In this document: in pieces, positions 7,679 to 27,039 of the stretch | Position numbering within the stretch: the stretch's first letter is position 1 | Layout: each line of letters opens with the position of its first letter | Assembly (NCBI GenBank): GCA_963170185.1 | Contig: CAUJGS010000024.1 | Coordinates: 1-34,382 of the forward strand | DNA: 34,382 bases | Direction of reading: 5' to 3' | Source: Bdellovibrionota bacterium | GTDB taxonomy: Bacteria > Bdellovibrionota > Bdellovibrionia > Bdellovibrionales > JAMPXM01 | The notes under the pieces: generated by a model | Database searches by the model: none | Told to the model about the DNA's origin: nothing | The model's input: the letters and a program-made list of their open reading frames with translations, nothing else | Position numbers and translations under genes: made by a program

Positions 7679-8419
7679 TTAGAAATGAATCGGCGGAACA
7701 TCTTGGCAGAGGATCTGAACACCTTCTGCTTGCAAGGGGGCCGCAGTTGCATCGATCTCCGTCGCCGCAGGCAACATGTAGAGATGTGCCGAGATCATTC
7801 GATCGGAGAGTTTCAGAGGCGACGGTAGACCAAGTTTCCGCGCTTTGGCCGCGTGCTCAGGAGCGAGCTTCGCGATTCGCCCGAGTGACTCCATGAGGTG
7901 ACGGGTCATGCAATTGAAACGTGCGTCTGTCGCCTCGATTTCATGAATCACTTCGCGCGCGGTTTTCGTGAGTTCTTCGTAACCCTTTTTCTTTGCGCGC
8001 TTGATTCGACGGCCAAGTATGTAAGGGTCGATTTCTTGAAAACGGCGAAGGTCGGGATGTGGCAAAGGTGAAGCTGTTTGAAAGCCGGGAGTGAGTGCCA
8101 TTGGAACGTATTCGTCACAAACGATGTTGATGCCGTGCTTTTGATAAATCTCGGCGTCCTTGTCGAAGTTGTGGAAGATACGGCTTCCAAAAATCGCCAT
8201 GCGCTCGTGCCGAATGAGGCGTTCCGAGATCTCTACCGAGCGAGAGTTCGTCAGAGCGCTATAGAGGGGTTTTCTATGTTCATTGAGTTCAATTGCTTCT
8301 CGCAAATGATCGCGAAAACATTCCTCTTTGGCATGTGCCTCGTTGAGAAATCCGAAGCACACAGGTAGAACAAGTGCCAGCATGAACGGGATAACGGTCG
8401 GAACAGATTTTGGTCTCAT
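7679..8419 (-). CDS. Secreted protein of unknown function
   Basis: The 246-residue product starts with a signal peptide (MRPKSVPTVIPFMLALVLPV, cleavage after NEAHA). An internal ATG at 8383 would also leave a hydrophobic leader, but the Arg/Lys-containing start at 8419 fits better. The mature protein has four cysteines (KEECFRD, NIVCDEY, RFNCMTR and QILCQDV), spaced so that two disulfides are plausible, and is otherwise mainly helical with many Arg/Lys/His. I do not recognise the family. Its 5' end overlaps the 5' end of the divergent membrane-protein gene at 8382 by 38 bases, which is unusual. It lies 139 bases before the aminopeptidase gene on the same strand and may share regulation with it. 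Confidence 0.72.
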   Translation of the reverse strand: MRPKSVPTVIPFMLALVLPVCFGFLNEAHAKEECFRDHLREAIELNEHRKPLYSALTNSRSVEISERLIRHERMAIFGSRIFHNFDKDAEIYQKHGINIVCDEYVPMALTPGFQTASPLPHPDLRRFQEIDPYILGRRIKRAKKKGYEELTKTAREVIHEIEATDARFNCMTRHLMESLGRIAKLAPEHAAKARKLGLPSPLKLSDRMISAHLYMLPAATEIDATAAPLQAEGVQILCQDVPPIHF

Positions 8420-8792
8420 TTCGTACCTCGCGATCTTCGCCGTTCATTTCGTATGGGCGGCCTATGTTCACGCCCGGGGCCTTGTCGATCTCTCCGTAGG
8501 GCCGATCAAGGGAACAACAGCTATTTTTCTCGGCCTCGTTCTCTTAAATCTGCCATCGGCTTTGGTGTTTATCCCAGAAGCGGGGATGGCCTCCTCCACT
8601 TGGATCTACGGGCATTGTTTTTACCATGTTTTGCTGACTCTCGACGAGGTGGTGAGAGTGAAAAAGGCCCCGATTCGTGGTGTCTTCCTAGTGAATCACC
8701 TGTACTGGGCTCTGTTGCTTCTGGCGTATGCTTTGAGTGTCGCCAACCAAGAAGTTTTTTCTCATAGTGCGGCCATGCGGGGTGGATTGTGA
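8382..8792 (+). CDS. Small integral membrane protein, first gene of the lipid-type operon
   Basis: Starting from the ATG at 8382 gives 136 residues with about four hydrophobic segments: near FGLISYLAIFAVHFVWAAYV, GTTAIFLGLVLLNLPSALVF, TWIYGHCFYHVLLTLDEV and GVFLVNHLYWALLLLAYAL. Polar residues sit inside them, including His, Asp and Tyr (YGHCFYH, LTLDE, VNHLYW). I do not recognise the family. No GTG or TTG start exists between 8382 and the first membrane segment, so the start cannot be later; an upstream ATG at 8328 has no better ribosome site. The stop overlaps the GTG of the ligase by 4 bases (GTGA), so translation is likely coupled and the protein probably works with the downstream enzymes. 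Confidence 0.7.
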   Translation: MNGITVGTDFGLISYLAIFAVHFVWAAYVHARGLVDLSVGPIKGTTAIFLGLVLLNLPSALVFIPEAGMASSTWIYGHCFYHVLLTLDEVVRVKKAPIRGVFLVNHLYWALLLLAYALSVANQEVFSHSAAMRGGL

Positions 8793-10264
8793 GCCTAAAC
8801 GGGGTAACCCCAGTTCTTGAAGCCATCGGCAAGCACCCCAATCGGCCAGCGCTGATTTTTCCTCGCCGTGCGGTTATGAGCTTTGGAGAGCTTGAGCGAG
8901 AATCGAAACGCTATCAGCTGGCTTTGAAGTCGCTGGGTATCGGAAAGGGCGAAACTATTCTCTTGGGTGAAGCGCCCTGCCCGGAACTCTATGCCTTTGT
9001 GCTGGCGGCCTTGGCTCAAGGAACGGCGGTGGCGGTCATCGAGCCGTGGATGCCGCTTTCAAAAATTGAATCGGTGGTTGAAGGTTTAAGGCCGAGACTT
9101 TTTTTGACGGGGCCTTTGGGGCGCGCGTGGGGAATTCGGTCGCGAGCGATTCGAAATATCCCTAGTTGGATGAGTCTTTCCGGGCTTCGACGAGAGGCGG
9201 AGATGAAACCTGCCGACATTGCAGGTTCTTTAGATGTGAAGTCGCTTGCGGCGGACCATCTTGGGCTCGTGGCTTTCACCAGTGGCACGACGGGTCTTCC
9301 CAAGGGAGTGCCTCGGCGTCACGAATATCTCATTCATCAGCATCGCGTTTTAAAAGAAGCCCTTCATCACGAGCATCATGAAAAGCCAGAGCTTACGATT
9401 TTTACCAACTTCGTCTTTGCGAATCTTGCGAGCGCAAGAGGATCGGTCGTGATTCCTTCTTCTTGGAAAGCGCAAGACTTGCGTTGGGCTTCGGAGCTTC
9501 AGGGCGAGCTCGCGCCGGAGACGGGGACGATGGGGCCCGCATTTTTGCGCCGTCTAGTGGTGGAGTCCGGATTTCAGAATTTGCGTTCGCTTCACGTCGG
9601 CGGGGCATTGACCGACACGGCGATCTTTGAGTCCGCGTTTGGTCGCTTTCGGGAAACAGAGTTTCTTCATGTGTACGGAAGTTCAGAGGCCGAGCCCGTG
9701 GCGGTGATGGATGCGCGCGAAGCCGTGAATCTCAGTCGAGAAAGCGGCCGATTTCAGACATTGGCTCTTGGCAGACCGATCGAACAGATTCAGCTTAAAA
9801 CCGAACTTTCCACGACGTGGGTGAAGGGTCCGCACGTCTGCCCGATGTACATCGGGAAAGATGAAAATGTGGCCGAGGAGAATCGCCTGAATAAACGCAT
9901 CGATGCCGACGGCTCGATTTGGCACGCGATGGGTGATCGTGTGAGCTTAAAAAACGGCGTGCTCTGGTACGGCGGACGAAGTTCACAAAGCGAAACAGAT
10001 TTCGAGCGTGAACAGCAGCTGTACTCGGCACTCGATACAAGTAAGCTTTTTTTGCATAGAGAGCGAGATGGCTCGCTTCAGCTCTTTTGTGAGGGAGCAA
10101 AGGATAAACTCTCGCGAATCCAAAGCGAAATTCAGGACTGGAACGAGAGAGTTTCGATATATCAAACGGAAATTGTTCGAGATCGCCGTCATCGCGCGCG
10201 CATCGACCGCGTGAAGTCGCGAGAGAAGTCCTCGTTTTGTAGTGAGAAGATGGAGAAGACATGA
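8789..10264 (+). CDS. Acyl-adenylate-forming ligase, OleC-like AMP-binding protein
   Basis: This 491-residue member of the ANL (acyl/aryl-CoA ligase) superfamily shows FTSGTTGLPKGV (A3 phosphate loop), VYGSSEAEPVAV (A5) and AMGDRVSLKNGVLWYGGRSS (A7/A8). The sequence around A3, A5 and the MGDR region resembles OleC-type ligases of olefin synthesis more than ordinary fatty acyl-CoA synthetases. The segment where OleC has HNAKI (the A10 lysine) reads HRARIDRVKSRE here, so that lysine may be replaced by arginine. The expected reaction is activation of a carboxylate, probably a long acyl chain, with ATP. The start is GTG with GGGGTGGA in front. It overlaps the preceding gene by 4 bases (GTGA) and the UbiA gene by 4 bases (ATGA). 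Confidence 0.82.
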   Translation: MSLNGVTPVLEAIGKHPNRPALIFPRRAVMSFGELERESKRYQLALKSLGIGKGETILLGEAPCPELYAFVLAALAQGTAVAVIEPWMPLSKIESVVEGLRPRLFLTGPLGRAWGIRSRAIRNIPSWMSLSGLRREAEMKPADIAGSLDVKSLAADHLGLVAFTSGTTGLPKGVPRRHEYLIHQHRVLKEALHHEHHEKPELTIFTNFVFANLASARGSVVIPSSWKAQDLRWASELQGELAPETGTMGPAFLRRLVVESGFQNLRSLHVGGALTDTAIFESAFGRFRETEFLHVYGSSEAEPVAVMDAREAVNLSRESGRFQTLALGRPIEQIQLKTELSTTWVKGPHVCPMYIGKDENVAEENRLNKRIDADGSIWHAMGDRVSLKNGVLWYGGRSSQSETDFEREQQLYSALDTSKLFLHRERDGSLQLFCEGAKDKLSRIQSEIQDWNERVSIYQTEIVRDRRHRARIDRVKSREKSSFCSEKMEKT

Positions 10265-11172
10265 GTCAAAAAGCCATTGAGCCCAATAGCGTGAGCGCAT
10301 GGACGATTTATCTTAAAGAGCGTTTTCCGCTTCCGGTGTACTTTCTCTTAAGTGGCGGACTTGTGCTGTCGGGATCTGTTCTGGCCTATATGGAACCGTT
10401 CACGGTTCTCACGCTTTTGGCGTTCGCTTTTGCTATGTGGCTTTTTGCGACACTCCGTTTGATGGATGAGCTTAAGGACTATCAAAAAGACCTCGTCGCC
10501 CATCCCACACGCCCGTTGCCGCGTGGACTTATCAAGACGGATACCGTCAAGAGCTTGATTCGAGTTTCGATGCTCGTGGGCCTTGCGATTTCAGGGGGTA
10601 TGTATTGGGCGAATCCGGTCGCCGGTATCTTCGCCCTCATTTCCGCGGTCTGGCTTTGGTTGATGTACAAGGAATTTTACATCGGCGAGAGCTTGGCGAA
10701 GCGACCTCTTATTTATGCTGTCACACATCAGGTAATCCTCATTCCGTTTTGCCTAGCGCTTTCGATGCGACCGCAAGTTTATGGCTCGATGCTAAACCTC
10801 AAGATCCTAGTATGGGCGATTGGTGTTTTGGGTTCGTTTTTCACCTACGAAGTTTCCCGCAAACTTGATCCCAAAGCGCATCCGGTTTTGCAAACCTATC
10901 TCGAGGTGTACGGCAAAGGCGGGTCATTTGCGATCGTGCTCGGCCTTTTCCCGCTTTGTCTGGCGGCCGCTCTTATGAGTCATCTTGAGATCTGGCTGCT
11001 GCCATGGTCTGTGTTGACGCTGCTTTCGTACGGACTGCTTTGGCTAAGCGTTCCGAAAGGGAAGGTCGACAAGCGCCACAAACTCATCGAAGGGTTTGCG
11101 ACACTTTCTTTGTTCTTTCATATCTGGACACCGATTTTGAAGTACTGGCTTGCGATGCAGGTAGGAGAATAG
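10261..11172 (+). CDS. UbiA-family prenyltransferase
   Basis: The 303-residue protein is almost entirely membrane segments, about nine, as expected for UbiA-family intramembrane prenyltransferases. The first Asp-rich motif is present as LMDELKDYQKD, followed by HPTRPLPRGLI, the usual sequence after that motif. The second region reads YEVSRKLDPKAHPVLQTYLE, in which the family's second Asp-rich motif is reduced to one Asp plus Glu and Lys. The enzyme should use a prenyl (or similar) diphosphate and an acceptor in the inner membrane. The acceptor cannot be read from sequence and there is no sign of a quinone pathway nearby. It lies between the ligase (4-base overlap) and the dikinase-like gene (3-base gap), so it belongs to this pathway rather than to housekeeping metabolism. 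Confidence 0.85.
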   Translation: MSQKAIEPNSVSAWTIYLKERFPLPVYFLLSGGLVLSGSVLAYMEPFTVLTLLAFAFAMWLFATLRLMDELKDYQKDLVAHPTRPLPRGLIKTDTVKSLIRVSMLVGLAISGGMYWANPVAGIFALISAVWLWLMYKEFYIGESLAKRPLIYAVTHQVILIPFCLALSMRPQVYGSMLNLKILVWAIGVLGSFFTYEVSRKLDPKAHPVLQTYLEVYGKGGSFAIVLGLFPLCLAAALMSHLEIWLLPWSVLTLLSYGLLWLSVPKGKVDKRHKLIEGFATLSLFFHIWTPILKYWLAMQVGE

Positions 11173-11175
11173 CGG

Positions 11176-14028
11176 ATGGCGTATCTGATTTATCCCAAAG
11201 ACATTCGAAGCTTAAATCAAGAAGCACAAGAAAAGCTCTTGCGTGAAGAGGTCGGTGGCAAGGGGAAGAATCTCTTTCGCATGACGGTGCTTGATCTTCC
11301 TGTGCCACAGTGGTTCGTCGTCGGAGCTCCGGCATTCGCGAAGTTTCAGATCGAGTCCGGAATTCATGCGAAAATCGAAGCGGTTTTGGTGGCGATGAAA
11401 AACCGTCTGCAAGAAGCCGAAGCGGCAGCGGTACGTCCGGAGCCCGCGATATTTGACGAAGCGGCAAAAGCCATCGAGGAGATGATCGTTCACTCGGCGC
11501 TTCCAAATGAACTCGCGATCGAACTCAAGCTCGGTCTTGAGTCCACGGAACTCGCCAACGAGGAATGTGCGGTTCGGTCAAGTGGTCTGGATGAAGATTC
11601 GGCACAGAACTCCTTTGCCGGTCAGTTTTCGAGTTACCTGTTTCAAAAAGGTCTCGATGCGATTTCGGATTCGATAAAAAAATGCTGGGCCTCTGGTTTT
11701 TCGGCGCGGGCTCTGAGCTATCGTTATGAACGTGGGCTGGGACTTGAAGAGATCTCGATTGGTGTCGTGATTCAAAAGATGGTTCAGGCTGATCGAGCGG
11801 GTGTGGCGTTTAGTCGAAACCCGATTCGTGCTCTTGATCGCGACTCGCTTTTGATCGCATCGGTTTATGGTCTTGGCGAGGGCCTGGTGAGCGGATACCT
11901 TGAGTCGGATTCTTACGATGTTTCCAGATCTAAGCGGACCATCAAAGCAGACCTTGTGACGAAGGATCAGGCCTTTCGCCGATCGACGGAAGGTGGCCTT
12001 AAGATCGAGTCGGTTGATCAGGCCCTGCAAAAGGTCTCGTCGCTCTCGGATGAAGAGGTTTTGAAAGTCGCGGATCTTTGCATGGATCTTGAGAAAAAGC
12101 TCAAAGCGCCTCAAGACTGCGAGTGGGCGATTGAAGGCGGCAAGGTCTATCTTGTCCAAACCCGCCCGGTCACGAGTCTTCCTCCAGACACTTATTTCGA
12201 ATCTAGTAGTCGAGGCGTGTCTGCGACCCTGTGGGATAACTCGAACATCATCGAAAGCTACTCAGGCGTTACGACACCTTTGACGTTTAGCTTCGCGTCT
12301 CGCGTGTATCGCCAAGTGTACATCCAATTTTGCGAAGTCATGGGGATCCCAGAAGCCTGGATTATCGAGCGCGAAGATGTTTTTCGTAACATGCTTGGCT
12401 TGATTCGCGGGCGCATCTACTACAACTTGGTCAATTGGTACAAACTTGTTCTGCTGCTTCCTGGCTCCGCGAACAACAAAAGCTTCATGGAAACCATGAT
12501 GGGCGTGAAACAAGGCCTTAAGCCGGAAGTCGCAAAGCTTTTTGAATTCGTGAACAACCCACCCAAGTACAGTGTCTTGCAAAAGCTCACGCTTTTGGTT
12601 TCGACCTACTTACGTTTTAAGAAAATCGACACGCTTGTCGGCGAGTTCAATAAAAACTTTGTCGAAACCTACGAGGATGCAAGAAAACGTCCTTACCGAA
12701 CCTACAGCTTTGATCAGCTTGTGGATGAGTATCATCGCCTGGAGGATCGCTTCCTTAAGCGGTGGCAGGTTCCAATCATCAATGATTATCTCTGCATGAT
12801 CTTTTTCGGACTTCTTAAAAAGCTCACGGAAAAATGGGTGGCAAGCGGCGACGAAGGCGGATCGCTGCAAAACGATCTTCTTTGTGGTCAAGGCGACCTT
12901 GAGAGCACGGAGCCGACAAAGACCCTGATGCGTATTGCAAAGGTCATCGACAAGGGTGATCCGTCGTCGCGCGAGTGGTTCTTAAAAGGAAAGCCGGGAG
13001 AAGTTTGGGCTACTTTGGCGCAAGAAGCCGCTGGCCAAGTGACAAACCAGCGAAGCGAGATCTACCGACTCTTCGATAACTTCCTCGATCTCTACGGTTT
13101 TCGTTGTATCAACGAACTAAAACTTGAAGAAAAAGACTTGCACGACGACCCAAGTTTCGTCGTTGGTTCGGTGCAAAGCTACGTGCGCACGGGGTCTTAT
13201 GATATCGAAAAGATGGAAGCGCGCGAGCTTGAAATTCGCGGCAAAGCCGAAAAGATTCTGGAAGAAAAGGTCTCTGGTCCAAAGCTTGCGATTTATCGCT
13301 GGGTTTTAAACGAAACCCGTCGCGCCGTTCGAAATCGCGAAAATCTTCGTTTTGCGCGAACCAAAGTTTTCGGCGTTGCCAGAAAAATTATTCGGGCGAT
13401 GGGGTATTGTCTAAAGAACCTCGGGTTCTTGCGACAAGAGTCTGATGTGTTTTATCTCACGATCGAGGAGCTGATCGCCTTTAACGAAGGTCGAACAGTG
13501 ACTTTGGATCTTGCGACTCTCACGGAGCTTCGCAAGAAAGAGTTTTTGAGCTTCGACAAAACTCAGCCGCCACCAGATCGCTTTTTGTTGGAAGGCGCGG
13601 TTGGTGTGAGCCTCCCCTACGGGCAGGTGCTTGCTGAGCTAGATCTTCTTCGCTCGGAACGACCAAAATCCGATGATCCAAACGTATTGATAGGCACGCC
13701 TTGCTGCCCGGGCGTGGTGGAAGGCGTTGTTCGCGTCGTAAAAGAGATGAAAGACGCCGAAGGCATTGCCGGTGAGATTCTTGTGACTGAGCGCACGGAT
13801 CCGGGTTGGGTTCCGCTTTACCCCAGCTGTTCGGGGCTTTTGATCGAGCGTGGAAGTCTGCTTTCGCATTCGGCGGTTGTTGCGCGAGAACTTGGTCTTC
13901 CCACGATTGTCGGGATTTCGGGTGGTTTGATGAAAAAGCTAAAGACCGGCGACCGAGTGCGTGTCGACGGCGCTAAAGGTGAAGTGCGGATTCTCAAAGA
14001 CGAGACCGAGAAGGCAGTGGAGGCCTAA
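11176..14028 (+). CDS. PEP-synthase/rifampin-phosphotransferase-like dikinase
   Basis: This 950-residue protein has the ATP-grasp part of PEP synthase-like enzymes: GGKGKNLFRM, CAVRSSGLDEDSAQNSFAGQ, VIQKMVQADRAGVAFSRNP and DCEWAIEGGKVYLVQTRP. A long central region of about 470 residues, starting WDNSNIIESYSGVTTPLTF, takes the place of the usual substrate domain. The C-terminus is the swivelling phosphohistidine domain, TDPGWVPLYPSCSGLLIERG then SHSAVVARELGLP, with catalytic His898. There is no TIM-barrel PEP domain, so the layout matches rifampin phosphotransferases. Such enzymes split ATP to AMP and pass a phosphate from His to a substrate. The operon context argues for a biosynthetic substrate rather than an antibiotic. 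AGGAGAA lies 8 bases before the ATG. Confidence 0.85.
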   Translation: MAYLIYPKDIRSLNQEAQEKLLREEVGGKGKNLFRMTVLDLPVPQWFVVGAPAFAKFQIESGIHAKIEAVLVAMKNRLQEAEAAAVRPEPAIFDEAAKAIEEMIVHSALPNELAIELKLGLESTELANEECAVRSSGLDEDSAQNSFAGQFSSYLFQKGLDAISDSIKKCWASGFSARALSYRYERGLGLEEISIGVVIQKMVQADRAGVAFSRNPIRALDRDSLLIASVYGLGEGLVSGYLESDSYDVSRSKRTIKADLVTKDQAFRRSTEGGLKIESVDQALQKVSSLSDEEVLKVADLCMDLEKKLKAPQDCEWAIEGGKVYLVQTRPVTSLPPDTYFESSSRGVSATLWDNSNIIESYSGVTTPLTFSFASRVYRQVYIQFCEVMGIPEAWIIEREDVFRNMLGLIRGRIYYNLVNWYKLVLLLPGSANNKSFMETMMGVKQGLKPEVAKLFEFVNNPPKYSVLQKLTLLVSTYLRFKKIDTLVGEFNKNFVETYEDARKRPYRTYSFDQLVDEYHRLEDRFLKRWQVPIINDYLCMIFFGLLKKLTEKWVASGDEGGSLQNDLLCGQGDLESTEPTKTLMRIAKVIDKGDPSSREWFLKGKPGEVWATLAQEAAGQVTNQRSEIYRLFDNFLDLYGFRCINELKLEEKDLHDDPSFVVGSVQSYVRTGSYDIEKMEARELEIRGKAEKILEEKVSGPKLAIYRWVLNETRRAVRNRENLRFARTKVFGVARKIIRAMGYCLKNLGFLRQESDVFYLTIEELIAFNEGRTVTLDLATLTELRKKEFLSFDKTQPPPDRFLLEGAVGVSLPYGQVLAELDLLRSERPKSDDPNVLIGTPCCPGVVEGVVRVVKEMKDAEGIAGEILVTERTDPGWVPLYPSCSGLLIERGSLLSHSAVVARELGLPTIVGISGGLMKKLKTGDRVRVDGAKGEVRILKDETEKAVEA

Positions 14029-14031: not shown

Positions 14032-15039
14032 ATGGGGTGGCTGATTCGCGATGTGACGGCACAAGAATTTGTGAGCTACTTTGGCGAGCCAAGCCGGGAC
14101 CCGCTGGCGAGATTTGTTTTGGCACCCGTGCCGTTTCCTCGACAGTTTGTGTTTGCGTATCGTGAAGGGGAGTCGAAACCCGCAGCTAGAATCTGCGGCT
14201 CGCAGTCGGTGGAAAAAGATCTGGCCATCGGTTTTTTTAGCGGGGAGCCTGACGCATTTCAGCCGATGAACCGTCATCTAGAAGCCTGGGCTATGCGACA
14301 GGGAGCCTCGCGTTTGATCGGCCCCATGATTTACAACACATGGTTTCCATATCGAGCAAGGCTCTTTGATGAAGAGCAATCGCGAATCGGAGCGGAAGGC
14401 TTTCAAGCGTTTTCTTGGGAACCGAATCAAAATCGCGGTGACGAGCGGCTTTGGGAGGATGCCGGGTATCAGGCGATCGAAAAGTATTCTTCTCGTGGCT
14501 ACAGCGATCTTCAGGGCTTTTATCAAAGATTGAAGCCGGCTCTCGATGCGGCTCTCGCGGATGGTTTTACGATTCACACGTTTCCAAGTCTGATGGTCGA
14601 TGAGGCTTCTCGTAGCCGTCTCCTCGATGATCTTTTCCAGCTCACTATGCAGAGCTTCAAGGACGCCTTCTTGTTTCAGCCGATTCCGCGCGAGTACTTT
14701 CATCAGCTCTATCTCGCTGGGTTTTCGGAGCTAAAGGATCTTTCTAGCTCATTCCTGATGCGTGATCGCAAAGGTCGTGCCGCCGCATTTAGTTTTGGAT
14801 TCCCGGATCGTGGTTACATGGTCTTTAAAACGTTAGCGGTAGGCACAGACTACCGAGGCAAAAAGCTCTCAAACGCCGTTATGGCGGCAAGTGCCGAGGT
14901 TGGAGTTCGTCAGGGTTTGGATAAGATGATTCACGCTCTTATGCGGCGCGGGAATTTGAGCGAGCATTTTGGTGGACGCTCGGAACTTCTCTTCGAGCAT
15001 AGCTATGGACTCTTTGCCAAACAGTTGGATTCGAAGTAG
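14032..15039 (+). CDS. GNAT-family acyltransferase
   Basis: The 335-residue protein starts 3 bases after the dikinase stop. The C-terminal part shows the GNAT acyl-CoA-binding region: MVFKTLAVGTDYRGKKLSNA followed by a helix, with a beta strand before it (AAAFSFGFPDRGY). The N-terminal half contains a second GNAT-like fold region ending in IGPMIYNTWFPYRARLF, so the protein may be a tandem or fused GNAT. No signal peptide or membrane segment is visible, so it acts in the cytoplasm or at the membrane face. It should move an acyl or acetyl group from CoA (or ACP) to an amine or hydroxyl of the pathway product. The substrate is unknown. Confidence 0.75.
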   Translation: MGWLIRDVTAQEFVSYFGEPSRDPLARFVLAPVPFPRQFVFAYREGESKPAARICGSQSVEKDLAIGFFSGEPDAFQPMNRHLEAWAMRQGASRLIGPMIYNTWFPYRARLFDEEQSRIGAEGFQAFSWEPNQNRGDERLWEDAGYQAIEKYSSRGYSDLQGFYQRLKPALDAALADGFTIHTFPSLMVDEASRSRLLDDLFQLTMQSFKDAFLFQPIPREYFHQLYLAGFSELKDLSSSFLMRDRKGRAAAFSFGFPDRGYMVFKTLAVGTDYRGKKLSNAVMAASAEVGVRQGLDKMIHALMRRGNLSEHFGGRSELLFEHSYGLFAKQLDSK

Positions 15040-18747: not shown

Positions 18748-19883
18748 AAAACCAATCCTCCGGTAAATTCCAATCGAAGACCGTATATCGTTTCACCCAA
18801 AATCGACTTTGCCTGCCCGAGAAGGCGGCCAGCCTGTCCGTCGTAACGTTGTAGGCCGGCGGAAAGAAGAAGCCCTTCATAGAGTTCTCGGCCGATTCGC
18901 AGCGACAAAAAGCGATCGTCGGCGGCTGAAGGCTGTCCAAAACCAATCATGACGTCGGATTCAAGAGACCATCGTTCTTTGGTGTAGCGAATCGGAAGGT
19001 AAAATATAGCTTCGCCGTCGTTTTGCAAGGCTGGGTCTTTGAAGGTCGTAATCTGAGGTCCAATTAGCCATTCATCGAGAAACCAATCGGTTCCAAACAT
19101 CGCAAACATGGCATCGCGGTCCGAGTTGCCGGCTTCGAATTTGAGAACGACTTTTTCAAAAGCGTAGCTCGCAAGCAAGCCAGTTTGTAGATCTCTGGAA
19201 TTGGTACCCGCTATCTTTTTTGTCGAACCAATGGCGGCCACCTCAAGAAGACCAAGCTTAACGCCAAGCTTGGCGGCGGTTTCGCCAAGGTTTTCTCGGT
19301 CACGATTTGGTAAGGGTTCGGCGAAACGAAACGGTGCCGAGCGAAGTACTTGGGCCACGTCGAGATCCCAAGAGTTTCCCTGAATTGTTCCCGAATAGGT
19401 TAGGCGAATGGCATCGGGGTGCGTGAGTTGATCGATCAAGGGATCAAGAAAAAAGCGATTGAACCTGCGCCCGGTGAGGAGGTCAAGAGATGGCAGCGTC
19501 CAGCTTTGACTCCATCGAATCGGCTGCCGACCGATACGAAGGCCAAGACCATTGGTAAAACCAAGATCCAACCAGGCTTCATTGAGGTCGGATTCCTCGC
19601 GCGATTTTCTTAGATCTGGTTGGCCGAGCGGCTTTTTTTCCTGCTCGGCGAAGTCGCGCGTCACGAAGCCCTCTAGGCGCATACGGTAACTGGCGAGGCC
19701 GAAACTGTTGGCTGAGATGTTTCCCGACTTGTCGGCGGCCAGGCGCAGATAAAGCTCTTGCTTGGCCCCCTTTTCATAGAGATCGAGTCTGGGCACATAT
19801 TCGAGGCTGGTCTCGGCATTTGCGAGCCGAGGAAGTGCTGCGAGAGCGAGAAGGCCTGCGAGAATCGTGAACTTGAAAGACAT
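18744..19883 (-). CDS. Outer-membrane beta-barrel protein
   Basis: The 379-residue precursor has a signal peptide (MSFKFTILAGLLALAALPRL, cleavage after ANA). The mature protein is made of alternating polar/hydrophobic strands and ends in an aromatic-rich, strand-like stretch (ETIYGLRLEFTGGLVL), as beta-barrels do. The block EAWLDLGFTNGLGLRIGRQP is typical of porin-like or DUF1302-type barrels, which often travel with a LolA-like protein and an RND exporter. It overlaps the LolA-like gene by one base (TGATG) and the BtaA-like gene by four. In this operon it may receive or flip a lipid at the outer membrane. No transporter for the inner membrane is encoded alongside. Confidence 0.72.
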   Translation of the reverse strand: MSFKFTILAGLLALAALPRLANAETSLEYVPRLDLYEKGAKQELYLRLAADKSGNISANSFGLASYRMRLEGFVTRDFAEQEKKPLGQPDLRKSREESDLNEAWLDLGFTNGLGLRIGRQPIRWSQSWTLPSLDLLTGRRFNRFFLDPLIDQLTHPDAIRLTYSGTIQGNSWDLDVAQVLRSAPFRFAEPLPNRDRENLGETAAKLGVKLGLLEVAAIGSTKKIAGTNSRDLQTGLLASYAFEKVVLKFEAGNSDRDAMFAMFGTDWFLDEWLIGPQITTFKDPALQNDGEAIFYLPIRYTKERWSLESDVMIGFGQPSAADDRFLSLRIGRELYEGLLLSAGLQRYDGQAGRLLGQAKSILGETIYGLRLEFTGGLVL

Positions 19884-20650
19884 CAGCGTACCTTCTCAAG
19901 ATTCTGCAGGGTGAAAACGGAATCCGCCAGATCGGACTTTTCCATTTTCAAAATCGAGATGGTGGATGACTTCCCAGTGACGTCTTCGATAACAAGTGTC
20001 GTCGGGCGGAGGCTGCCGGCGATATTCTTGTATTCGGTGTAGCGCGCGCGCTTTAACACGGTTTTTCCATCGAGACCTAAAAACTCGGCACGACTCGGTC
20101 TTGCATTTTGCTTGTCCACCCAGAGTCGAATCTTTTGATAGGTGAGCATGGGTTTATTGCCTTCGAGGAACAGCACGGCATCTTTGTCGTCTTCTTTTTC
20201 CAAAGTCGCCGTGTAGTCGCCATGCCAGCGAGTGCGCGCTATATCGCCGTTTGAAACTTCGCCAGACATTTTTTGCGCAAGCGACAGCCGAACGGATTTT
20301 TTAAGGTTCGGAATATAAGCGTGAAAATCGCGATCCAGCATCAGCATGTTGCGGCCGCGATCTTTGGCCGGGCTCTTGACCACAACAAGGGTTTTTTCTT
20401 TTCCTTTAAGAAAAACGTCAAAGGTTTGGTCCGTCGACGAAGTCTTCACGCCAATCGTCATCGTATAGGTCTCGGCGGGATTTCGCACATCGTCGGCCAT
20501 TTTTAAGAGACGATCGGCCGAGATTTTTTCCGCAGCATAGGTATGCCGGACATGGCCCACGAGACAGCTAAAGAAGAGTGCTAACAAAAGGACCGGTGAA
20601 ATAACGGACGAGCGTCTGTTTAGTTTTAATGGAAAATGTTGAGTGATCAC
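19883..20650 (-). CDS. LolA-like outer-membrane lipoprotein-sorting-type protein
   Basis: This 255-residue precursor starts at GTG, overlapping the upstream gene by 4 bases (GTGA). A basic leader is followed by a hydrophobic core (SVISPVLLLALFFSCLVGHV, cleavage near TYAA). The mature protein has the half-barrel sequence pattern of the LolA-like domain: ADRLLKMADDVRNPAETYTM, FLKGKEKTLVVVKSPAKDRG and RTRWHGDYTATLEKEDDKDA, then KIRLWVDKQNARPSRAEFLG. Proteins of this type are periplasmic and bind a lipid-like ligand in a hydrophobic cavity. Here the partner is the next gene, an outer-membrane barrel, so I infer that the pair carries a lipid product from the inner to the outer membrane. Confidence 0.82.
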   Translation of the reverse strand: MITQHFPLKLNRRSSVISPVLLLALFFSCLVGHVRHTYAAEKISADRLLKMADDVRNPAETYTMTIGVKTSSTDQTFDVFLKGKEKTLVVVKSPAKDRGRNMLMLDRDFHAYIPNLKKSVRLSLAQKMSGEVSNGDIARTRWHGDYTATLEKEDDKDAVLFLEGNKPMLTYQKIRLWVDKQNARPSRAEFLGLDGKTVLKRARYTEYKNIAGSLRPTTLVIEDVTGKSSTISILKMEKSDLADSVFTLQNLEKVR

Positions 20651-21333
20651 GAGTGTTGCTCCTCGAATGCCAATTGGATGGCTTGGGCCGCGACGTCGCG
20701 GGCGTGAATCGGCTTGATGGATTTTGGAAGATTGATTCCGATTTTTTGAATGAAGTGAAAAACGCTTTCCGCCAAAGATTCGCCAAGGCGTTTTGTTTCT
20801 CGTTCCCCCAATAGGAGGGATGGACGAATGATTCGTATTTGCGAGAGATTGAGACTCAAAATCTCTTTTTCAAGCTGACCTTTGATGCGGGGGTAAAAAA
20901 ATAGCGAGTCCGAGTTGGCCCCCGAAGCCGAGATCAGAACCAATGTCGAACTGGCTTTTTTTAAAGCCGTCACCCGGGAAAACTCCTTGGCCGTTTCCAA
21001 TTGATAGGTGAAATCGACAAGGTACTGTTGAGATTTGCTTCCGGCCTGTTTCAGGGTTGTGCCAAGAGCGGAGAAGAGAACGCCGTGGTCGCCCGGCAGT
21101 AGGCTATCGAACCAATTCGTGGGTGGCTGAGAAAGAGCATCGAAGTCGACGACGAGCTCTTGAAGCTTGTGATCGGTAGGTTCAGAGTTTTTCAATTTCC
21201 CCGGACAACGTACGAAAGCCGTCACGGATGAGACATGGTCGACTTTCAAAAGGCTATCTACGATTTCACGACCAACAAGTCCTGTTGCTCCCAAAACGAA
21301 AGCTTTCGCAGAGCGACTTTTTGAAACTGTCAC
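20647..21333 (-). CDS. TIP30/NmrA-like NAD(P)-binding oxidoreductase
   Basis: The 228-residue protein is a short atypical SDR. GATGLVG near residue 14 binds NAD(P). FSALGTTLKQAGSKSQQYLV and VLISASGANSDSLFFYPRIK are characteristic of the HTATIP2 (TIP30)-like branch, and YPRIK supplies the catalytic Tyr-x-x-x-Lys pair. The start is GTG (21331-21333), overlapping the stop of the preceding gene as GTGA; the end overlaps the LolA-like gene the same way. The gene is therefore translationally coupled on both sides. The substrate is not predictable; in this operon a keto- or aldehyde-lipid intermediate is reasonable. Confidence 0.8.
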   Translation of the reverse strand: MTVSKSRSAKAFVLGATGLVGREIVDSLLKVDHVSSVTAFVRCPGKLKNSEPTDHKLQELVVDFDALSQPPTNWFDSLLPGDHGVLFSALGTTLKQAGSKSQQYLVDFTYQLETAKEFSRVTALKKASSTLVLISASGANSDSLFFYPRIKGQLEKEILSLNLSQIRIIRPSLLLGERETKRLGESLAESVFHFIQKIGINLPKSIKPIHARDVAAQAIQLAFEEQHS

Positions 21334-23465
21334 GAGAGACCTCGAGCACGAAGAGCTAGTTCACGACATAGCTGAATTTCTTTATCGGATATAATTCCGG
21401 CTGGGCCACGAATCATGGCGAGCTTCACTCCGTGGCGAACGGCCAGGCGGTAGATTTCTTTCACTTTTTGCCAATCAAGATCGCGCCCAAGAGTAAAAGA
21501 CTCGTAGCGCTCTTCCATGGCAAGCAGAGCCGTTTCACCTAGGCAGGCATAGACGACATTGTCTGGAAGGCCGATGTCGCAGTTTAGCTGGTTGTTCGCC
21601 CCAGGAAGAACGACTTCGCCGGATTCGATAAACAAAACGTCGGGTCGCTTCATGATATCTTCGGGTGTAAAGTCGAGCGGACGTGAGCAGTCGCATACGA
21701 CGCATCCGGGTTTTAACAACATGACATCGACGACTTTTTGATCAAACGCCGATGTCGCGGTCACGAGCACATCCGTGTGGGATGCAACGAAGTTGGCATC
21801 AGTGGCTAGTCGCACTTCGGTTTTTGGATTGAGCTCTGCGATTTCGTTTGCCAGTTCTTCGAGGCGCTCCATGCGAGGCGCCACTAAACAAACCCGCTCA
21901 AAGACCAGGGCCAAAAGCTTTGCGGAAACTTTCCCGATCGACCCTGTTGCTCCAATGATAGTCGCGGTTCCTTTGACAAGCCCGGTGTCGGAGTCGACTT
22001 TTAAGAGCCCCATCTTTTTTACCGCTTCGTGCACAGCCCAGAGCGTTGCCGAGGCGGAAAGGGAGTTTCCGGTCGTAACCGGAATGGGGCTCATGCGATT
22101 GATCGTGGCACCGGCATCTCCGACGATCTTCGTGTAAGCGCCGAGGCCGATGATACGCGCGCCTTGATTGGCGGCGTGATGGCAAAGCCGTTCGATTTTC
22201 TCGTAAGTCACTTCCGGTGATTCTTCTCGCATCACGCGCGGAGTTGCGAAGAGGCCGTAGACCACGCCGCCAACTTCTCGACCTGTTTTTTTGGAAACGA
22301 TTCCGGTCATGCTGCCGTAAACGATTCCCGGAAGTTTTGCGGCGGCGTTTTCGATGTACGGCTGAAAGTTTTTTGGAAGCTTTCGAGCTATCTGAAGTCC
22401 AGGTACACGCGTCAGGTCGCGAAAGCTAAGGCTATGAACGACAAACGCGAAGTCAGGTTGTTTGGTGGCTTCTTTTCTATGCGAGGCTAGAATTCGCGAT
22501 TTCACTAGGCGCGTTTGAATGGATGGTCTTGCGGCTGTGACATAGCGCCGGGTTTCGTGGGTGATCTCGGTTTCGCTTTCCAGAATTTCTTGCCAGTCCT
22601 CAAGCGAAAGTGAAGTGGTTTTGCCTTTTGAGATCCGCAAGACCGCGTCGATCGCGGAGTGGCTAAGTTTGGTATCCCAGGACTCAAATCGTTCGGGCAT
22701 GAGGCGGTGAACCTTGGCTGCGCCCAGTCGTTCGAACTCTCGGATTAAACGAGGGTCAGAAGTCGTGGAGATGATTTCGCGCCCACGTAGGATTTCGGTG
22801 TCTCTTGCAAAGAGATGAATCAGATAGGGGTCTCCGAAGACATACCGATAGGCGCCTAGTTCACGTGTCAATGAGGCAAGCGACTTTTCGCGTTTCACAT
22901 TGGAGGCGCGTGGGGCCAGATCGCCCATGTCGCGAAACTGTGAGACGGCGATTCCAAGTTTGGTGAGTTCTAAAAGGATCGGCCACGGTTTGGCGACGAT
23001 AGGAAGGCCAAGTCCGGCGTAGAGGTCCCCAAATCCGATTCGCGCGCCGTATTTTTCGTGCACGGTCGAGAGCGCTTCCATGTGAAGCAAACCTACGGGA
23101 AAAAAGATGCCGTCTCGCGGTTCGATGACGCCTTCGCGCGCGAGTCTAGCGATGCCGTCGATTTCGGCCAGTTCGCGCAAGCGTTCGCCGTTGCAAAGGG
23201 GAACCGAAACCGGTGTCGACATCACCTCCAGGGCTTGTCGATGGGTGTACACGCGATCGCGAAAGCGAATTTCCGTGGGGAAGCTTGTGATAGCGAAGGC
23301 ATCGACTTGCGAGCGCAGGCGCTCGATCATGGTTTTTAGGCTTTCGACGCTGTACTCGACGCCGATTCTTTGGATTTCAAAGCTATGGTCTCCAACTTGA
23401 AATTTGGAGGAGTAGTTCCATCGACTGGAGCCGAAGCTGAGTTCAGCGATTCTGTGCGTAGCCAT
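21330..23465 (-). CDS. Acyl-ACP-reductase-like protein with a large unknown N-terminal domain
   Basis: I chose the ATG at 23465 because GGAGAGG lies 5 bases ahead; an in-frame ATG at 23498 has no such site. The 711-residue product is two-part. Residues about 336-711 resemble cyanobacterial long-chain acyl-ACP reductase (AAR): FAFVVHSLSFRDL at its start, GARIIGLGAYTKIVGDAGAT, TGNSLSASATLWAVHEAV, the nucleotide-binding GATGSIG (505-511), and VVYACLGETALLAMEE. In the last, Cys641 aligns with the cysteine that carries the acyl group in AAR. The distance from GATG to Cys (136) also fits. Residues 1-335 are an alpha/beta-looking domain I do not recognise, containing FFPVGLLHMEALSTVHEKYG and VFGDPYLIHLF. 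Expected chemistry is reduction of an acyl thioester to an aldehyde with NADPH. Confidence 0.78.
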   Translation of the reverse strand: MATHRIAELSFGSSRWNYSSKFQVGDHSFEIQRIGVEYSVESLKTMIERLRSQVDAFAITSFPTEIRFRDRVYTHRQALEVMSTPVSVPLCNGERLRELAEIDGIARLAREGVIEPRDGIFFPVGLLHMEALSTVHEKYGARIGFGDLYAGLGLPIVAKPWPILLELTKLGIAVSQFRDMGDLAPRASNVKREKSLASLTRELGAYRYVFGDPYLIHLFARDTEILRGREIISTTSDPRLIREFERLGAAKVHRLMPERFESWDTKLSHSAIDAVLRISKGKTTSLSLEDWQEILESETEITHETRRYVTAARPSIQTRLVKSRILASHRKEATKQPDFAFVVHSLSFRDLTRVPGLQIARKLPKNFQPYIENAAAKLPGIVYGSMTGIVSKKTGREVGGVVYGLFATPRVMREESPEVTYEKIERLCHHAANQGARIIGLGAYTKIVGDAGATINRMSPIPVTTGNSLSASATLWAVHEAVKKMGLLKVDSDTGLVKGTATIIGATGSIGKVSAKLLALVFERVCLVAPRMERLEELANEIAELNPKTEVRLATDANFVASHTDVLVTATSAFDQKVVDVMLLKPGCVVCDCSRPLDFTPEDIMKRPDVLFIESGEVVLPGANNQLNCDIGLPDNVVYACLGETALLAMEERYESFTLGRDLDWQKVKEIYRLAVRHGVKLAMIRGPAGIISDKEIQLCRELALRARGLS

Positions 23466-24561
23466 CAAAGCCTCTCCACAGAGTATTTTCAAGGACACTA
23501 AAGGACGGATAAAAGTCGTTTCCTAATGTGTCGTCAGAAGATTGAAAGTCGAGCTCGGGAAGGTTGATCACGTACTCAAGTTCTTCGCGTGGGAGGCGAG
23601 CGATCCATTCGGCAACGGGCTTCACGATAGAGTCGGGTATGCTGCTCGTGATTTTCACGTCGCTATCGAGACCGAGATGACGAAGTGCCGAGGTGTAAAG
23701 CTCGCGCGCTGTTGGTCCGTTTGAGGGTGCAACATAATAGCTCTTGGTCAAATCCTCTGATGCAAAAAAATCTCCGATGAGTTTTGTTATCGCTTGGGCC
23801 GCTAAGTCTACGGGTACAAGCGGGATTCGTCGATCCGAATGCCCAGGCAAAAACAGCGGTCCATGCCAGGCGTCGAGGACTTTTCTTAGGCGTCGGAATG
23901 CATCGACGGCATGGTAGGGGCCGTCGATACGTAAGATGCGTCCATCTTTCGAGTCACCGACAACGATACCTGGTCGGAGAATCAGTTTTCGTTTGGGAAA
24001 TTCGCCCGACCAGTTTCGCACAAGCTTCTCGGCTTCCGCTTTTGTTGTGGCGTAGTGATCTGGAAATGGACCGCGAACCTCTTGATCGGGCGCAATCGGC
24101 CGTTTGCCGTCTGTTTCGGTCGGTTTGCCGTGAAACTCGGGGCGGCGAATACTGGCGTCGGCTGTGCGAACGTCGATTGTGTGCCCGTGGCCCATAGTCA
24201 CTGCGACCGTCGAGATATGAGTGAATACCGGAATTTTTAGAAGCTCACTTAGGTGAAGCGCGTTGTGCGTGCCGTAGACGTTGTGAAGGAACGCATCCTC
24301 CAAGCTCACTCGGAGGTCGTAAAGACCGGCCATGTGAAGAAGCAGATCAAACTTCTCGCTTTTCAACTGTTCAATAGCGGTCTCATCAAGACCGGCATCC
24401 CACTTTGAAAGATCGGCATGCAGGACGCGGTCCGCGGCCTCTTGTTTCTTGGCTTGTCTTGAGAGCGTGACGATCTGAAGCTTTGGATAAGCGGATTTTA
24501 GCGCCCGCAGCACCCAGTGGCCGAGAAAGCCGCTTGCGCCCGTGACGAGGACCTTTTTCAT
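23443..24561 (-). CDS. Extended SDR, fatty-acyl-reductase (FAR)-like
   Basis: The 372-residue protein has the N-terminal NAD(P) motif VTGASGFLGHWVL, a Ser/Thr in THISTVAV, and the catalytic pair in DHYATTKAEAEKL (YxxxK). RPGIVVGDSKDGRILRIDGP is the signature seen in fatty-acyl-CoA reductases and related thioester reductases, more than in sugar epimerases. The C-terminal 90 residues probably form the substrate-binding lid. It should reduce an acyl thioester, aldehyde or ketone. It starts 4 bases inside the end of the lipid-kinase gene (ATGA) with GGAGG in front, and its end overlaps the AAR-like gene by 23 bases. Two different acyl-reductase types side by side suggest sequential steps. Confidence 0.78.
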   Translation of the reverse strand: MKKVLVTGASGFLGHWVLRALKSAYPKLQIVTLSRQAKKQEAADRVLHADLSKWDAGLDETAIEQLKSEKFDLLLHMAGLYDLRVSLEDAFLHNVYGTHNALHLSELLKIPVFTHISTVAVTMGHGHTIDVRTADASIRRPEFHGKPTETDGKRPIAPDQEVRGPFPDHYATTKAEAEKLVRNWSGEFPKRKLILRPGIVVGDSKDGRILRIDGPYHAVDAFRRLRKVLDAWHGPLFLPGHSDRRIPLVPVDLAAQAITKLIGDFFASEDLTKSYYVAPSNGPTARELYTSALRHLGLDSDVKITSSIPDSIVKPVAEWIARLPREELEYVINLPELDFQSSDDTLGNDFYPSFSVLENTLWRGFDGYAQNR

Positions 24562-25556
24562 TCGGCCTCCGCTGAACCGGAAAACACCGGAAGAGCATGC
24601 TTAAGACAAGTCACTTCAATTTCTCGAACCCCGCGCTGAAGGATCTCGCCGTCGCCAAAGAAGGTCAGGTTTCTGGCCGAGCCCTTTGAGCGGAAAACGG
24701 CATGCGAGGTTTCGATACGGGGACAAACGGACTCATCCGGCAAAAGTCCTTTGCGGATTTTCATCAACGATCGCGCGATTCCGGCAAGGCTGCTGGATTC
24801 CACCAAGAGGATATTGAATGTGCCGTCGGTGTTGGAAGTTAAAGGAGCCGGGATGTATTTGCCACCCAAGCCAGGTTGATTGTTCACCATGATAAACGGC
24901 GCGCTTGTCTCTCGCTTCTGACCATTTCCTAGTTCAATCGAGACACACCAGCCGCGAAGCCATTCGCGCGATCGACCTGTGAGAAGTTGGCCCGCCAGGA
25001 GGAGTTCATAAATCTGAGACCCAACAAGACGGACCGCGTGACGAAGCGGGTTGGATTGCCGAAGCTCAGAACGAACCTGATTGGCCAGATCCGCCGTCTC
25101 GGCGGCGATACCGAGTCCGCCGTTTGTGAGCATGTAGACGGTGCGCTCGTCAGATTTGACCTCGATGACATCAATGGCGTGGGGCTCTGTTTCTAGCACA
25201 CGTCGGGCGGTGCGCTCTAGTCGGCGACTCAAGCCAAGTTCCGACGCGAGATCGTTGGCTGTTCCGACGGGGAGCGGAAGAATGGGAGGAATTTTGAAAG
25301 CGGTATCGTTTGCTTTCTGAGACTGCAGGCGTGCCATCAGCGGCTGAATAGCCGTATTCAACGTGCCGTCGCCGCCGCAGATGATGAGCGCATCGGAGGT
25401 TTTAGAAAGTTCTAAAACAAGGTTTTGGAGATCGGTCGGCGATTGGGGTGTGAAGTACTCCCGCTCTGTTCGAAAGAGCGCGCGATCACAGGCGGAGCGG
25501 ATGGCGTCTATGGACGCGTTCCCAGCTTGACCGTTGATCAGAACTGAGACCTTCAT
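24558..25556 (-). CDS. Diacylglycerol-kinase-family lipid kinase
   Basis: The 332-residue protein shows the DAGK catalytic domain signatures: INGQAGN at the start, ICGGDGTLNTAI (the nucleotide-binding GGDGT), LPLPVGTANDLASELG (the family's LPLGTxNDFA block), TNGGLGIAAETA, and FFGDGE near the C-terminus. It therefore belongs with DgkB, YegS and sphingosine-kinase-like enzymes. It transfers phosphate from ATP to the hydroxyl of a lipid, perhaps diacylglycerol or a long-chain alcohol made by this operon. There is no signal peptide; it acts at the cytoplasmic face of the membrane. GAAGGA precedes the ATG and the upstream gene ends 10 bases away. Confidence 0.88.
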   Translation of the reverse strand: MKVSVLINGQAGNASIDAIRSACDRALFRTEREYFTPQSPTDLQNLVLELSKTSDALIICGGDGTLNTAIQPLMARLQSQKANDTAFKIPPILPLPVGTANDLASELGLSRRLERTARRVLETEPHAIDVIEVKSDERTVYMLTNGGLGIAAETADLANQVRSELRQSNPLRHAVRLVGSQIYELLLAGQLLTGRSREWLRGWCVSIELGNGQKRETSAPFIMVNNQPGLGGKYIPAPLTSNTDGTFNILLVESSSLAGIARSLMKIRKGLLPDESVCPRIETSHAVFRSKGSARNLTFFGDGEILQRGVREIEVTCLKHALPVFSGSAEAE

Positions 25557-25566
25557 CGGCGGTCCT

Positions 25567-27039
25567 TCATCGATTGTCCTTCTTCGATTGAAGCTTGTCT
25601 TTCACACGTGAAGACATACGCACACCAATATTGAGCGCCGACTTCGTAACTTCAATCGTTTTTCCAGCGCCACCTAAAATAGCGCCGGCTGGAGGAAGAA
25701 ACAGTGAGACTTTGAATTCTTTGTCGGCTTTGGTGAGATCCTGATAGCGAGGGGATGTTGTTTCTTCCGCCCCGGTTTCGTGCTCCAGTACGGCGAGAAA
25801 GCGATGAAACGCATGATCGCGCTCGAGTTTTGTTTCAAGTACGGCGGCACCGCCCGCCGCAGCGCCGAAGCTCGCGCCGACGATCCAAGGTGTGAAGAAA
25901 GGAAGTGCAATCGCGGCGGCCGTAATTGGAATTCCAAGCGCCAGCTGATTTCCTAGCTTGCGATTGTCTTTGGTGAGGACGAGTGACGTCGCAAGACCGC
26001 AATACTTGGGGTTTTCCAAAAGAAGTCTTTCCAGCTGGGGCGTGAAATCCAAGAGCGCAAGCGCATCGGTCGGAGTGGGTAGCGATTTGATGCCGACTTT
26101 GACGCCGGACCGCCCATAGACGGGAGCCGTTGTTTTCCCAAGAAGTTCGAGTTTTTCTTTTGCCATCGTGGTGTCTTGATTTAGGTGTCCACGAAGGATT
26201 TTGACGGCCCCAAGCAGTTCGGTTCGATTGAGGGGAGAGGTCGTGATGTATTGCAAAATGGGATGTGTCGAAATCACTTTGGCATAGCTAGCCCAGTTTT
26301 TTAAGCGCGCGCCCAAAATCGCGTCACTGACGAATCGGTTGTAAGACTCGCTTCCCGGTTTGTGACCACGCTTTTGTGCCTCTGAGGCGGCTTCGGTTTT
26401 GTATTCTTCGAGAATTTTTTTAGTGAGATCGGATTCCGCCTTGTCGAGCGGTTTCCAGTCTTCCTTTTTTAAGGTGCCGTGGGGATCGAGCGCAAGGTTG
26501 GCGCTAATATGGCCAGATTTTTTTATCAGCGTATCGTACTGATTGGCGTTGATCGAAAGTGCCAGATCAATTCTCGCGCCACGAACGGTTTCGGCGAGGC
26601 TTGATTCCCATTCGAACACGACACCGCACACGTCGGAGTCTTTTTTCTCTTTACCGGTGAGACAGCCCTCGATCGCATCCAGGAAACTGGTTTCACCTTC
26701 GAGATCGGAGATGGCCGATAGCGCCAGTTCTTTTAAAAAAGCGCGACTCGAATTTCCTTTCGCGTCGGTTTCGGGAAGTGCACGACGAAATAAACCAGTT
26801 TCGGGGCGTCCCTTTAAAAGACCGGGCGGTTCGTGACAGGCTTTCGCAAATGGCGCGACCTCGGCTTCTTCGATCGCTTCGGAAATCTGTTTCAGCCGAC
26901 TCATTTCATACGGCGAAAGAAGCTCTTCGGGAACGGGTTCGCAGGCCGGAGTGAATTCGGCGTTTGCGGGGCTCAGTCGAAAAAGCAAAACGACTGCGGC
27001 GAGGGTTGAAATAAGAAGGCGAGACTTGGCGAATAACAC
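25567..27039 (-). CDS. Large secreted protein of unknown function, first gene of the minus-strand operon
   Basis: The 490-residue product starts at GTG; no ATG, GTG or TTG occurs upstream before an in-frame stop, and no Shine-Dalgarno sequence is visible. The signal peptide is MLFAKSRLLISTLAAVVLLF with cleavage after PANA. The mature protein is mostly charged helix, with five cysteines in the first 150 residues and one near the middle. A long hydrophobic hairpin (ALGIPITAAAIALPFFTPWI plus GASFGAAAGGAAVLE) lies around residues 365-400, and a second small-residue stretch (FLPPAGAILGGAG) follows it. Such hairpins suggest membrane insertion. I do not recognise the family. It precedes the lipid-kinase gene by 10 bases and so is probably the first gene of the operon. 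Confidence 0.75.
   Translation of the reverse strand: MLFAKSRLLISTLAAVVLLFRLSPANAEFTPACEPVPEELLSPYEMSRLKQISEAIEEAEVAPFAKACHEPPGLLKGRPETGLFRRALPETDAKGNSSRAFLKELALSAISDLEGETSFLDAIEGCLTGKEKKDSDVCGVVFEWESSLAETVRGARIDLALSINANQYDTLIKKSGHISANLALDPHGTLKKEDWKPLDKAESDLTKKILEEYKTEAASEAQKRGHKPGSESYNRFVSDAILGARLKNWASYAKVISTHPILQYITTSPLNRTELLGAVKILRGHLNQDTTMAKEKLELLGKTTAPVYGRSGVKVGIKSLPTPTDALALLDFTPQLERLLLENPKYCGLATSLVLTKDNRKLGNQLALGIPITAAAIALPFFTPWIVGASFGAAAGGAAVLETKLERDHAFHRFLAVLEHETGAEETTSPRYQDLTKADKEFKVSLFLPPAGAILGGAGKTIEVTKSALNIGVRMSSRVKDKLQSKKDNR

Follow-up and report, generated by a model that had tools for sequence, protein, structure and literature searches.

Whether two gene runs that face each other on a single contig build one product, and what that product would be, is the question raised by the stretch of DNA analysed here (the window; 34,382 nucleotides), which makes up contig C24 in a draft genome of 3.54 Mb (G000) from the order Bdellovibrionales, an order in which relatives with closed genomes of 3.6-4.0 Mb are found. 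The first-pass annotation had read the two runs as one pathway for an unusual lipid with outer-membrane export. With gene calls verified through open reading frame (ORF) calling, Pfam and NCBIfam, we consider it probable, from sequence comparisons, that both operons form one pathway by which Bdellovibrionota make and export a specialised amphiphile, either a lipid or a lipid-like metabolite. Co-occurrence of the halves, versions in which they form a single operon, and fusions within the plus-strand half all argue for this reading, which stands without three genes originally counted as members, PafA, DoxX and TIP30. The individual family calls were borne out, both on the plus strand (OleC-like ligase, UbiA prenyltransferase, phosphohistidine dikinase, GNAT acyltransferase and PafA) and on the minus strand (lipid kinase, FAR-like and AAR-like reductases, TIP30-like reductase, LolA-like carrier, BtaA-like transferase, DoxX and a putative outer-membrane barrel). 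The tight packing was likewise confirmed. Of about 12 junctions within the runs, 7 are overlaps of 1-4 bases and three are gaps of 3-9 bases, and the facing runs do lie 24 bases apart, the last plus-strand ORF ending at 17193 and DoxX beginning at 17218.

The clearest evidence for a shared function comes from the distribution of the two halves among 291 genomes of Bdellovibrionota, in which the AAR-type reductase was scored by strong matches. This reductase, from the minus-strand half, and the phosphoenolpyruvate (PEP)-synthase-like protein of the plus-strand half (PPS) were present together in 80 genomes, with 7 carrying the reductase only, 9 carrying PPS only and 195 carrying neither (phi 0.87); independent occurrence of the halves in many genomes was not seen. 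In addition, the BtaA-like gene of the minus-strand half was found in 89 of 89 PPS genomes (BtaA/PPS counts 89-0-7-195). Two controls in the same test gave far lower association with the pathway reductase, namely ExoD (phi 0.09), a patchily distributed gene, unrelated to the pathway, that borders the cluster in the family to which the window belongs, and PafA (phi 0.04). When they share a contig, the AAR and PPS genes are separated by a median of 8.3 kb, and three genomes (G031, G043 and G066) have the halves distant or on separate contigs, yet keep both. Both halves are absent from G003, a 98% complete genome of the window's genus, and from the near-complete G034, which belongs to the genus of the 3.8-Mb Bdellovibrio genomes. 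That the two gene runs are halves of one co-inherited pathway is well supported. As a separate observation, a complete single-contig genome of 2.7 Mb from the family of Bdellovibrio-like genomes (G020) lacks AAR, PPS and BtaA, all of which are present in larger Bdellovibrio-like genomes; possession of the set may vary with the style of predation.

Neighbourhoods anchored on the 722-aa AAR-type protein (n=88; flanks of up to 10 kb, with all ORFs clustered) define the conserved gene set, and family counts among them are lower bounds, as many contigs end early. A core consisting of a DGK-type kinase, a short-chain dehydrogenase/reductase (SDR) of the FAR type, the two-part AAR-type reductase, BtaA-like, OleC-like and UbiA proteins, PPS and GNAT was recognised in about 85 neighbourhoods from Bdellovibrio, Bacteriovorax/Halobacteriovorax and Oligoflexia. 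The most frequent families were AAR (85), FAR (78), DGK (77), BtaA (62), OleC (48), PPS (45) and UbiA (44), and the more variable ones included a formyltransferase (30), an ATP-binding cassette (ABC) permease (28) and ATPase (25), LolA (21), GNAT (20), the barrel (16 plus 6) and a P450 (12). Nearly all of 80 matched loci belong to Bdellovibrionota, including B. bacteriovorus strain kdesi (L098), Bacteriovorax sp. BSW11_IV (L071) and Halobacteriovorax metagenome-assembled genomes, and the core persists while the flanking genes (ClpP, ExoD and an outer-membrane efflux protein, OEP) differ between families. The one-pathway reading passes the check proposed with it, a comparison of the halves in related genomes: they co-occur and the gene sets are kept across the phylum. 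The order varies, being convergent in the window, divergent in Bacteriovorax and on one strand elsewhere. One such single-strand operon (L136) reads DGK-FAR-AAR-BtaA-formyltransferase-hydrolase-OleC-UbiA-PPS-ABC ATPase-ABC permease-LolA-barrel, and two others (L109 and L126) are the same minus LolA and the barrel. Across the loci, an overlap of 4 bases is typical of neighbours on the same strand, and several genes of the set are coupled in translation or fused; OleC adjoins UbiA in 37 loci, with a median overlap of 4 nt. Pfam places AMP-binding and UbiA domains in a single ORF in L082 and L117, with apparent OleC-UbiA fusions in L061, L068, L069 and L107 (tblastn and ORF length).

In the window, the plus-strand core begins with the OleC-like AMP-ligase (8789..10264; PF00501, 108 bits), which is predicted to activate an acyl substrate. 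It matches PRK09274 at 138 bits and the OleC equivalogs at just 70 and 62 bits (cut-offs 900 and 850); the ligase of the second pathway variant described below (variant B) reaches 220 and 209 bits against the same models. The UbiA-superfamily prenyltransferase follows (10261..11172, plus strand; PF01040, 41 bits, cut-off 34), and its best sequence match in the PDB is the DGGGP synthase 6m31 (E 1.5e-6), covering 91 positions in the N-terminal part only. DGGGP synthase is an archaeal ether-lipid enzyme. Each of the 11 carriers searched has HMG-CoA reductase, so a supply of prenyl diphosphates from mevalonate is likely in these bacteria. In one genome (G098; L132:3009-5354), HMG-CoA reductase is fused to an APH/EcKL kinase-like region and adjoins divergent PPS, BtaA, UbiA and GNAT genes. 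PPS itself (11176..14028, plus strand; 950 aa) is a PEP-synthase-like phosphohistidine phosphotransferase/ligase with matches to PPDK_N and the mobile His domain (PEP-utilizers) only. Pfam detects no PEP-utilizers_C domain, and matches to PPDK and PEP synthase profiles span only the same two domains. The nearest named NCBIfam families are PRK06241.2-2 (873 bits), RedH (359 bits) and PigC (338 bits), so that the closest characterised families are the RedH/PigC ligases, under their equivalog cut-offs of 1350 and 1300. The phosphohistidine region LSHSA..ARE is invariant in 23 of 23 sequences. Internal stops reported in some PPS genes were considered as possible selenocysteine codons and judged to be terminal stops read through by the alignment; a plain ORF spans the protein in G072.

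The last plus-strand core gene encodes a GNAT N-acyltransferase (14032..15039) recognised from weak PF00583/PF13480 matches, under the Pfam cut-off, and from its aligned family; no strong PDB match was found for it. GNAT (20 loci) and the formyltransferase (30 loci) are mutually exclusive, with no locus carrying both, and thereby separate variant A, used by the window, from variant B. Among loci with the variant B formyltransferase, in which the N.H...D triad is kept, nearly all of those that extend to the ligase end also have an alpha/beta hydrolase, either as its own gene or fused to the ligase. Variant A shows no separate hydrolase, and the P450 occurs solely with GNAT, in 10 of the 20 GNAT loci. 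The simplest reading is that GNAT and the formyltransferase cap the same amine.

On the minus strand, the two-part acyl-thioester reductase (21330..23498; 722 aa; PigE, 162 bits) carries a catalytic C-terminal AAR/PigE-N-like domain and an N-terminal AAR-like domain, and reaches 46.4 bits against the cyanobacterial AAR equivalog TIGR04058 (cut-off 449.7). The C-terminal half has the AAR fold (Z 32, root-mean-square deviation of about 3 over 328 residues), with an invariant C652 at the position of AAR Cys294. The N-domain of PigE has been shown to form an aldehyde by thioester reduction (PMC8341465). The N-terminal half (22464-23498, minus strand) matched nothing in Pfam or NCBIfam, and its predicted fold (pLDDT 86) is closest to AAR (Z 10.9 versus 8.8 for the next fold), which suggests a degenerate AAR duplicate, another fold being less likely; a separate known enzyme was rejected for this half, as there is no family match in these databases and the fold alone resembles AAR. 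No aminotransferase Pfam match was found anywhere in the protein. The adjoining FAR/thioester-reductase-type SDR (23443..24561, minus strand; PF07993, 109 bits) conserves the serine, YxxxK and GxxGFLG elements and overlaps the AAR gene by 56 nt, or by less if a conserved ATG near 23465 is the true start. The GGDGT motif is conserved in the DGK/YegS-type lipid kinase (24558..25556, minus strand; PF00781, 64 bits, with PF19279). The BtaA-like DUF3419 protein (17647..18747, minus strand) matches PF11899 over its full length at 180 bits (cut-off 28) and has invariant NED, GSGxR and GKWE blocks. Aminocarboxypropyl transfer from S-adenosylmethionine (SAM) is established for BtaA, and by analogy the branch represented here may also move this group from SAM. 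Intact active sites are seen in the thioester reductase, the SDR, the kinase and the phosphohistidine protein, as well as in the formyltransferase of variant B.

Export genes accompany these enzymes, and their association with the pathway is well supported. A LolA-like periplasmic carrier (19883..20650, minus strand; PF17131, 124 bits), with counterparts in 21 of 85 loci, is adjoined in most carriers by the gene for the putative outer-membrane beta-barrel (18744..19883, minus strand), a strand-rich protein with a signal peptide and a conserved GRQ.xRWSxSW...PSLD motif for which no Pfam, NCBIfam, PDB or structure match was found. In relatives, genes for a MacB/FtsX permease and an ATPase lie between those for AAR and LolA or close by. 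The window has TIP30 in the place of these ABC exporter genes; the permease of its genome (66% identity) lies at the end of contig C26, and the ATPase was not seen in this genome, where the contig ends beside the permease. The ABC permease, LolA-like carrier and barrel together resemble a private Lol route to the outer membrane, and an exported amphiphile is the likely product of the pathway.

A scheme that accommodates these predictions would begin with the OleC-like ligase adenylating a fatty or hydroxy-fatty acid and passing it to UbiA, which would add a mevalonate-derived prenyl group. The AAR-type reductase would convert an acyl thioester to an aldehyde, and the SDR would reduce this to an alcohol- or ether-type chain. 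The BtaA-like enzyme would add 3-amino-3-carboxypropyl from SAM, and GNAT would acylate the amine, which in variant B would be formylated. PPS, acting via phosphohistidine, may either activate and join the assembled intermediate or phosphorylate it; the DGK-type kinase may phosphorylate the hydroxyl of this intermediate or else provide a phosphorylated precursor. A LolCD-like ABC pump, the LolA-like carrier and the barrel would then carry the product to the outer membrane. We infer that the product is most likely an exported amphiphile with a capped SAM-derived aminocarboxypropyl group, a chain derived from a fatty aldehyde or alcohol, and a prenyl group; the labels "ether-type" and "aminoacyl-type" given to it by the first-pass annotation are guesses. 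Much more tentatively, it may represent a new lipid class specific to the phylum: a prenylated aminolipid whose aminocarboxypropyl group comes from SAM and whose amine is capped by acyl or formyl in the two variants, joined by a phosphohistidine ligase, delivered to the outer membrane by a dedicated Lol-like system and perhaps of importance for the envelope of these predators.

Several points weigh against a single pathway of this kind. UbiA prenyltransferases have two Asp-rich motifs, NDxxDxxxD and DxxxD; here the first is invariant as DExKDxxxD and E..RK stands in place of the second in each of the 18 aligned sequences, and because this second motif is lost, prenyl transfer is not certain. 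The f21 genomes keep the BtaA-OleC-UbiA-PPS-GNAT part without AAR and FAR, and G173 has this part with FAR and DGK and without AAR, so the reductive branch is semi-core and not obligatory. There are also a few genomes with AAR and BtaA that lack PPS. Exporters vary between ABC/LolA/barrel, double FtsX and MMPL types (f21 and G173 use two FtsX domains or MMPL), and the barrel is one by prediction. Most enzymes score under curated equivalog cut-offs, for which reason the substrate predictions are weak. Fisher values for the co-occurrence ignore phylogeny, and the ExoD and PafA controls are the better yardstick. Finally, the literature consulted (mostly open-access, with few subscription journals) yielded no product, mutant or expression evidence, and no papers on the gene set, on Bdellovibrio betaine lipids or on predator-specific lipid genes.

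Could the same genes make something other than a structural lipid of the outer membrane? One possibility, though an unlikely one, is a small natural product in the prodiginine or tambjamine style, secreted or bound to the membrane, for which a RedH/PigC/TamQ-like ligase would couple a fatty aldehyde to a nucleophile. RedH and PigC are the nearest characterised relatives of PPS, PigE-N is nearest to the AAR-type domain, half of the GNAT loci carry a P450, and the exporters include MacB/FtsX and MMPL types. One genome (G059; L038:9898-15639) even has a separate tambjamine- or prodiginine-like pair, a class-III aminotransferase/AAR-like fusion (TamH-like) beside a PPS-like protein and a methyltransferase. 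Set against this, PPS reaches 338-359 bits where the cut-offs are 1300-1350, no aminotransferase or pyrrole-forming genes recur in the loci, and the lipid kinase, BtaA-like enzyme and LolA-like carrier are all recurrent. It is improbable that two functionally separate modules (reductases, kinase and BtaA; ligase, prenyltransferase and PPS) are simply adjacent for historical reasons. Variation in orientation and order, the three genomes with unlinked halves and the f21 genomes without reductases would agree with such a history, but the phi of 0.87 between halves against 0.04-0.09 for the controls, the presence of BtaA in every PPS genome and the single-operon versions that combine both halves do not.

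Two further known chemistries leave large parts of the set unaccounted for. A full-length DUF3419 match, together with lipid kinase and export genes, would suit a betaine/homoserine glycerolipid pathway of the diacylglyceryl-trimethylhomoserine (DGTS) type, based on BtaA chemistry with accessory genes; no BtaB-type methyltransferase was found among the window genes or recurring neighbours, and OleC, UbiA and PPS go unexplained, which makes this quite improbable. An OleABCD-like hydrocarbon or beta-lactone pathway, built on the OleC-like ligase, variant B hydrolase and SDR, is more improbable still: the hydrolase-ligase fusion of variant B has the OleB-OleC order and its ligase scores 209-220 bits against the OleC equivalogs, but the ligase of the window reaches 70 bits where the cut-off is 900, the SDR resembles thioester reductases more closely than OleD, and no OleA-type thiolase was seen among families present in at least 4 loci. 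An archaeal ether-lipid route is disfavoured, as GGGP synthase (PcrB, PF01884) was found in 0 of 11 carriers by a search that detects archaeal controls. None of the known pathways tested explains the full set, and a single co-inherited pathway for an amphiphile is the reading we prefer.

The remaining genes of the two runs are local extras. The PafA-like phosphatase/phosphodiesterase (15049..16704, plus strand; PF01663, 101 bits; NCBIfam PafA, 359 bits, cut-off 650) is present in the cluster-free G003, lies mostly on other contigs, and adjoins the pathway only in G000 and G004. The DoxX/HvfX-like membrane protein (17218..17613, minus strand; PF07681, 64 bits) borders the pathway in G004 but in no other relative, and the TIP30-like SDR (20647..21333, minus strand; PF13460) has counterparts only in G004 and G001. 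Because of the phi of 0.04 for PafA, the local adjacency of DoxX and the genus-level occurrence of TIP30, these three claimed members are left out. The same applies to a secreted 490-aa protein (25567..27039, minus strand), with relatives only in the near genomes G004 and G012, and two small plus-strand proteins with relatives in G004 only, a membrane protein (8382..8792) and a putative exported protein (16720..17193), should be left out as well. Elsewhere in the window, a 185-aa ORF (4036-4593, minus strand) aligns with citrate/sulfate transporters over their C-terminal part alone (PF03600, 207-335 of 336) and is probably a gene remnant. At 29990-34380 (plus strand), an OEP gene and another ORF follow two genes that Pfam does not match; G004, G012 and, in part, G006 keep this block next to ClpP and ExoD.

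Bdellovibrio is the model bacterial predator and has an unusual envelope, and about ten co-inherited biosynthetic genes with an exporter in cultivated B. bacteriovorus and Bacteriovorax offer a testable route to an outer-membrane or secreted lipid. In its metabolic model, the synthesis of lipids and of the envelope is given as incomplete (PMC7529429). In the proposed pathway, a PigC/RedH-like ligase and a BtaA-like enzyme appear in a new chemical setting, which is best seen by comparison with known systems. With PigE/TamH and PigC/RedH/TamQ it shares a Cys reductase domain, a PPDK_N and PEP-utilizers ligase without a PEP-binding domain, and the logic of an aldehyde made and used; unlike in prodiginine and tambjamine clusters, the reductase is not fused to an aminotransferase, pyrrole genes are missing, and BtaA, UbiA, DGK and LolA-type genes are joined to the set. 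The DUF3419 protein, with its predicted aminocarboxypropyl transfer from SAM, is shared with the BtaA/BtaB route to DGTS, whereas the loci here lack BtaB and add an amine-capping GNAT or formyltransferase as well as the ligase, UbiA and PPS. The OleC-like ligase, the hydrolase-ligase fusion of variant B and the SDR recall OleABCD, but the loci have no OleA, the ligase falls under the OleC models and the product is apparently exported. Fold and the Cys294 equivalent are those of cyanobacterial AAR, here fused to a second, degenerate AAR-like domain and with no aldehyde-deformylating oxygenase seen, and PPS differs from PEP synthase and PPDK in having no C-terminal PEP/pyruvate-binding domain. 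Among known exporters are the LolCDE-LolA system of lipoprotein sorting and the LolA-like/MMPL exporters of aryl-polyene or flexirubin clusters; an FtsX/MacB-type permease and ATPase, a LolA-like carrier and a barrel likewise stand beside biosynthetic genes here, but with a single MacB-like permease, a barrel without a Pfam match and no ketosynthases.

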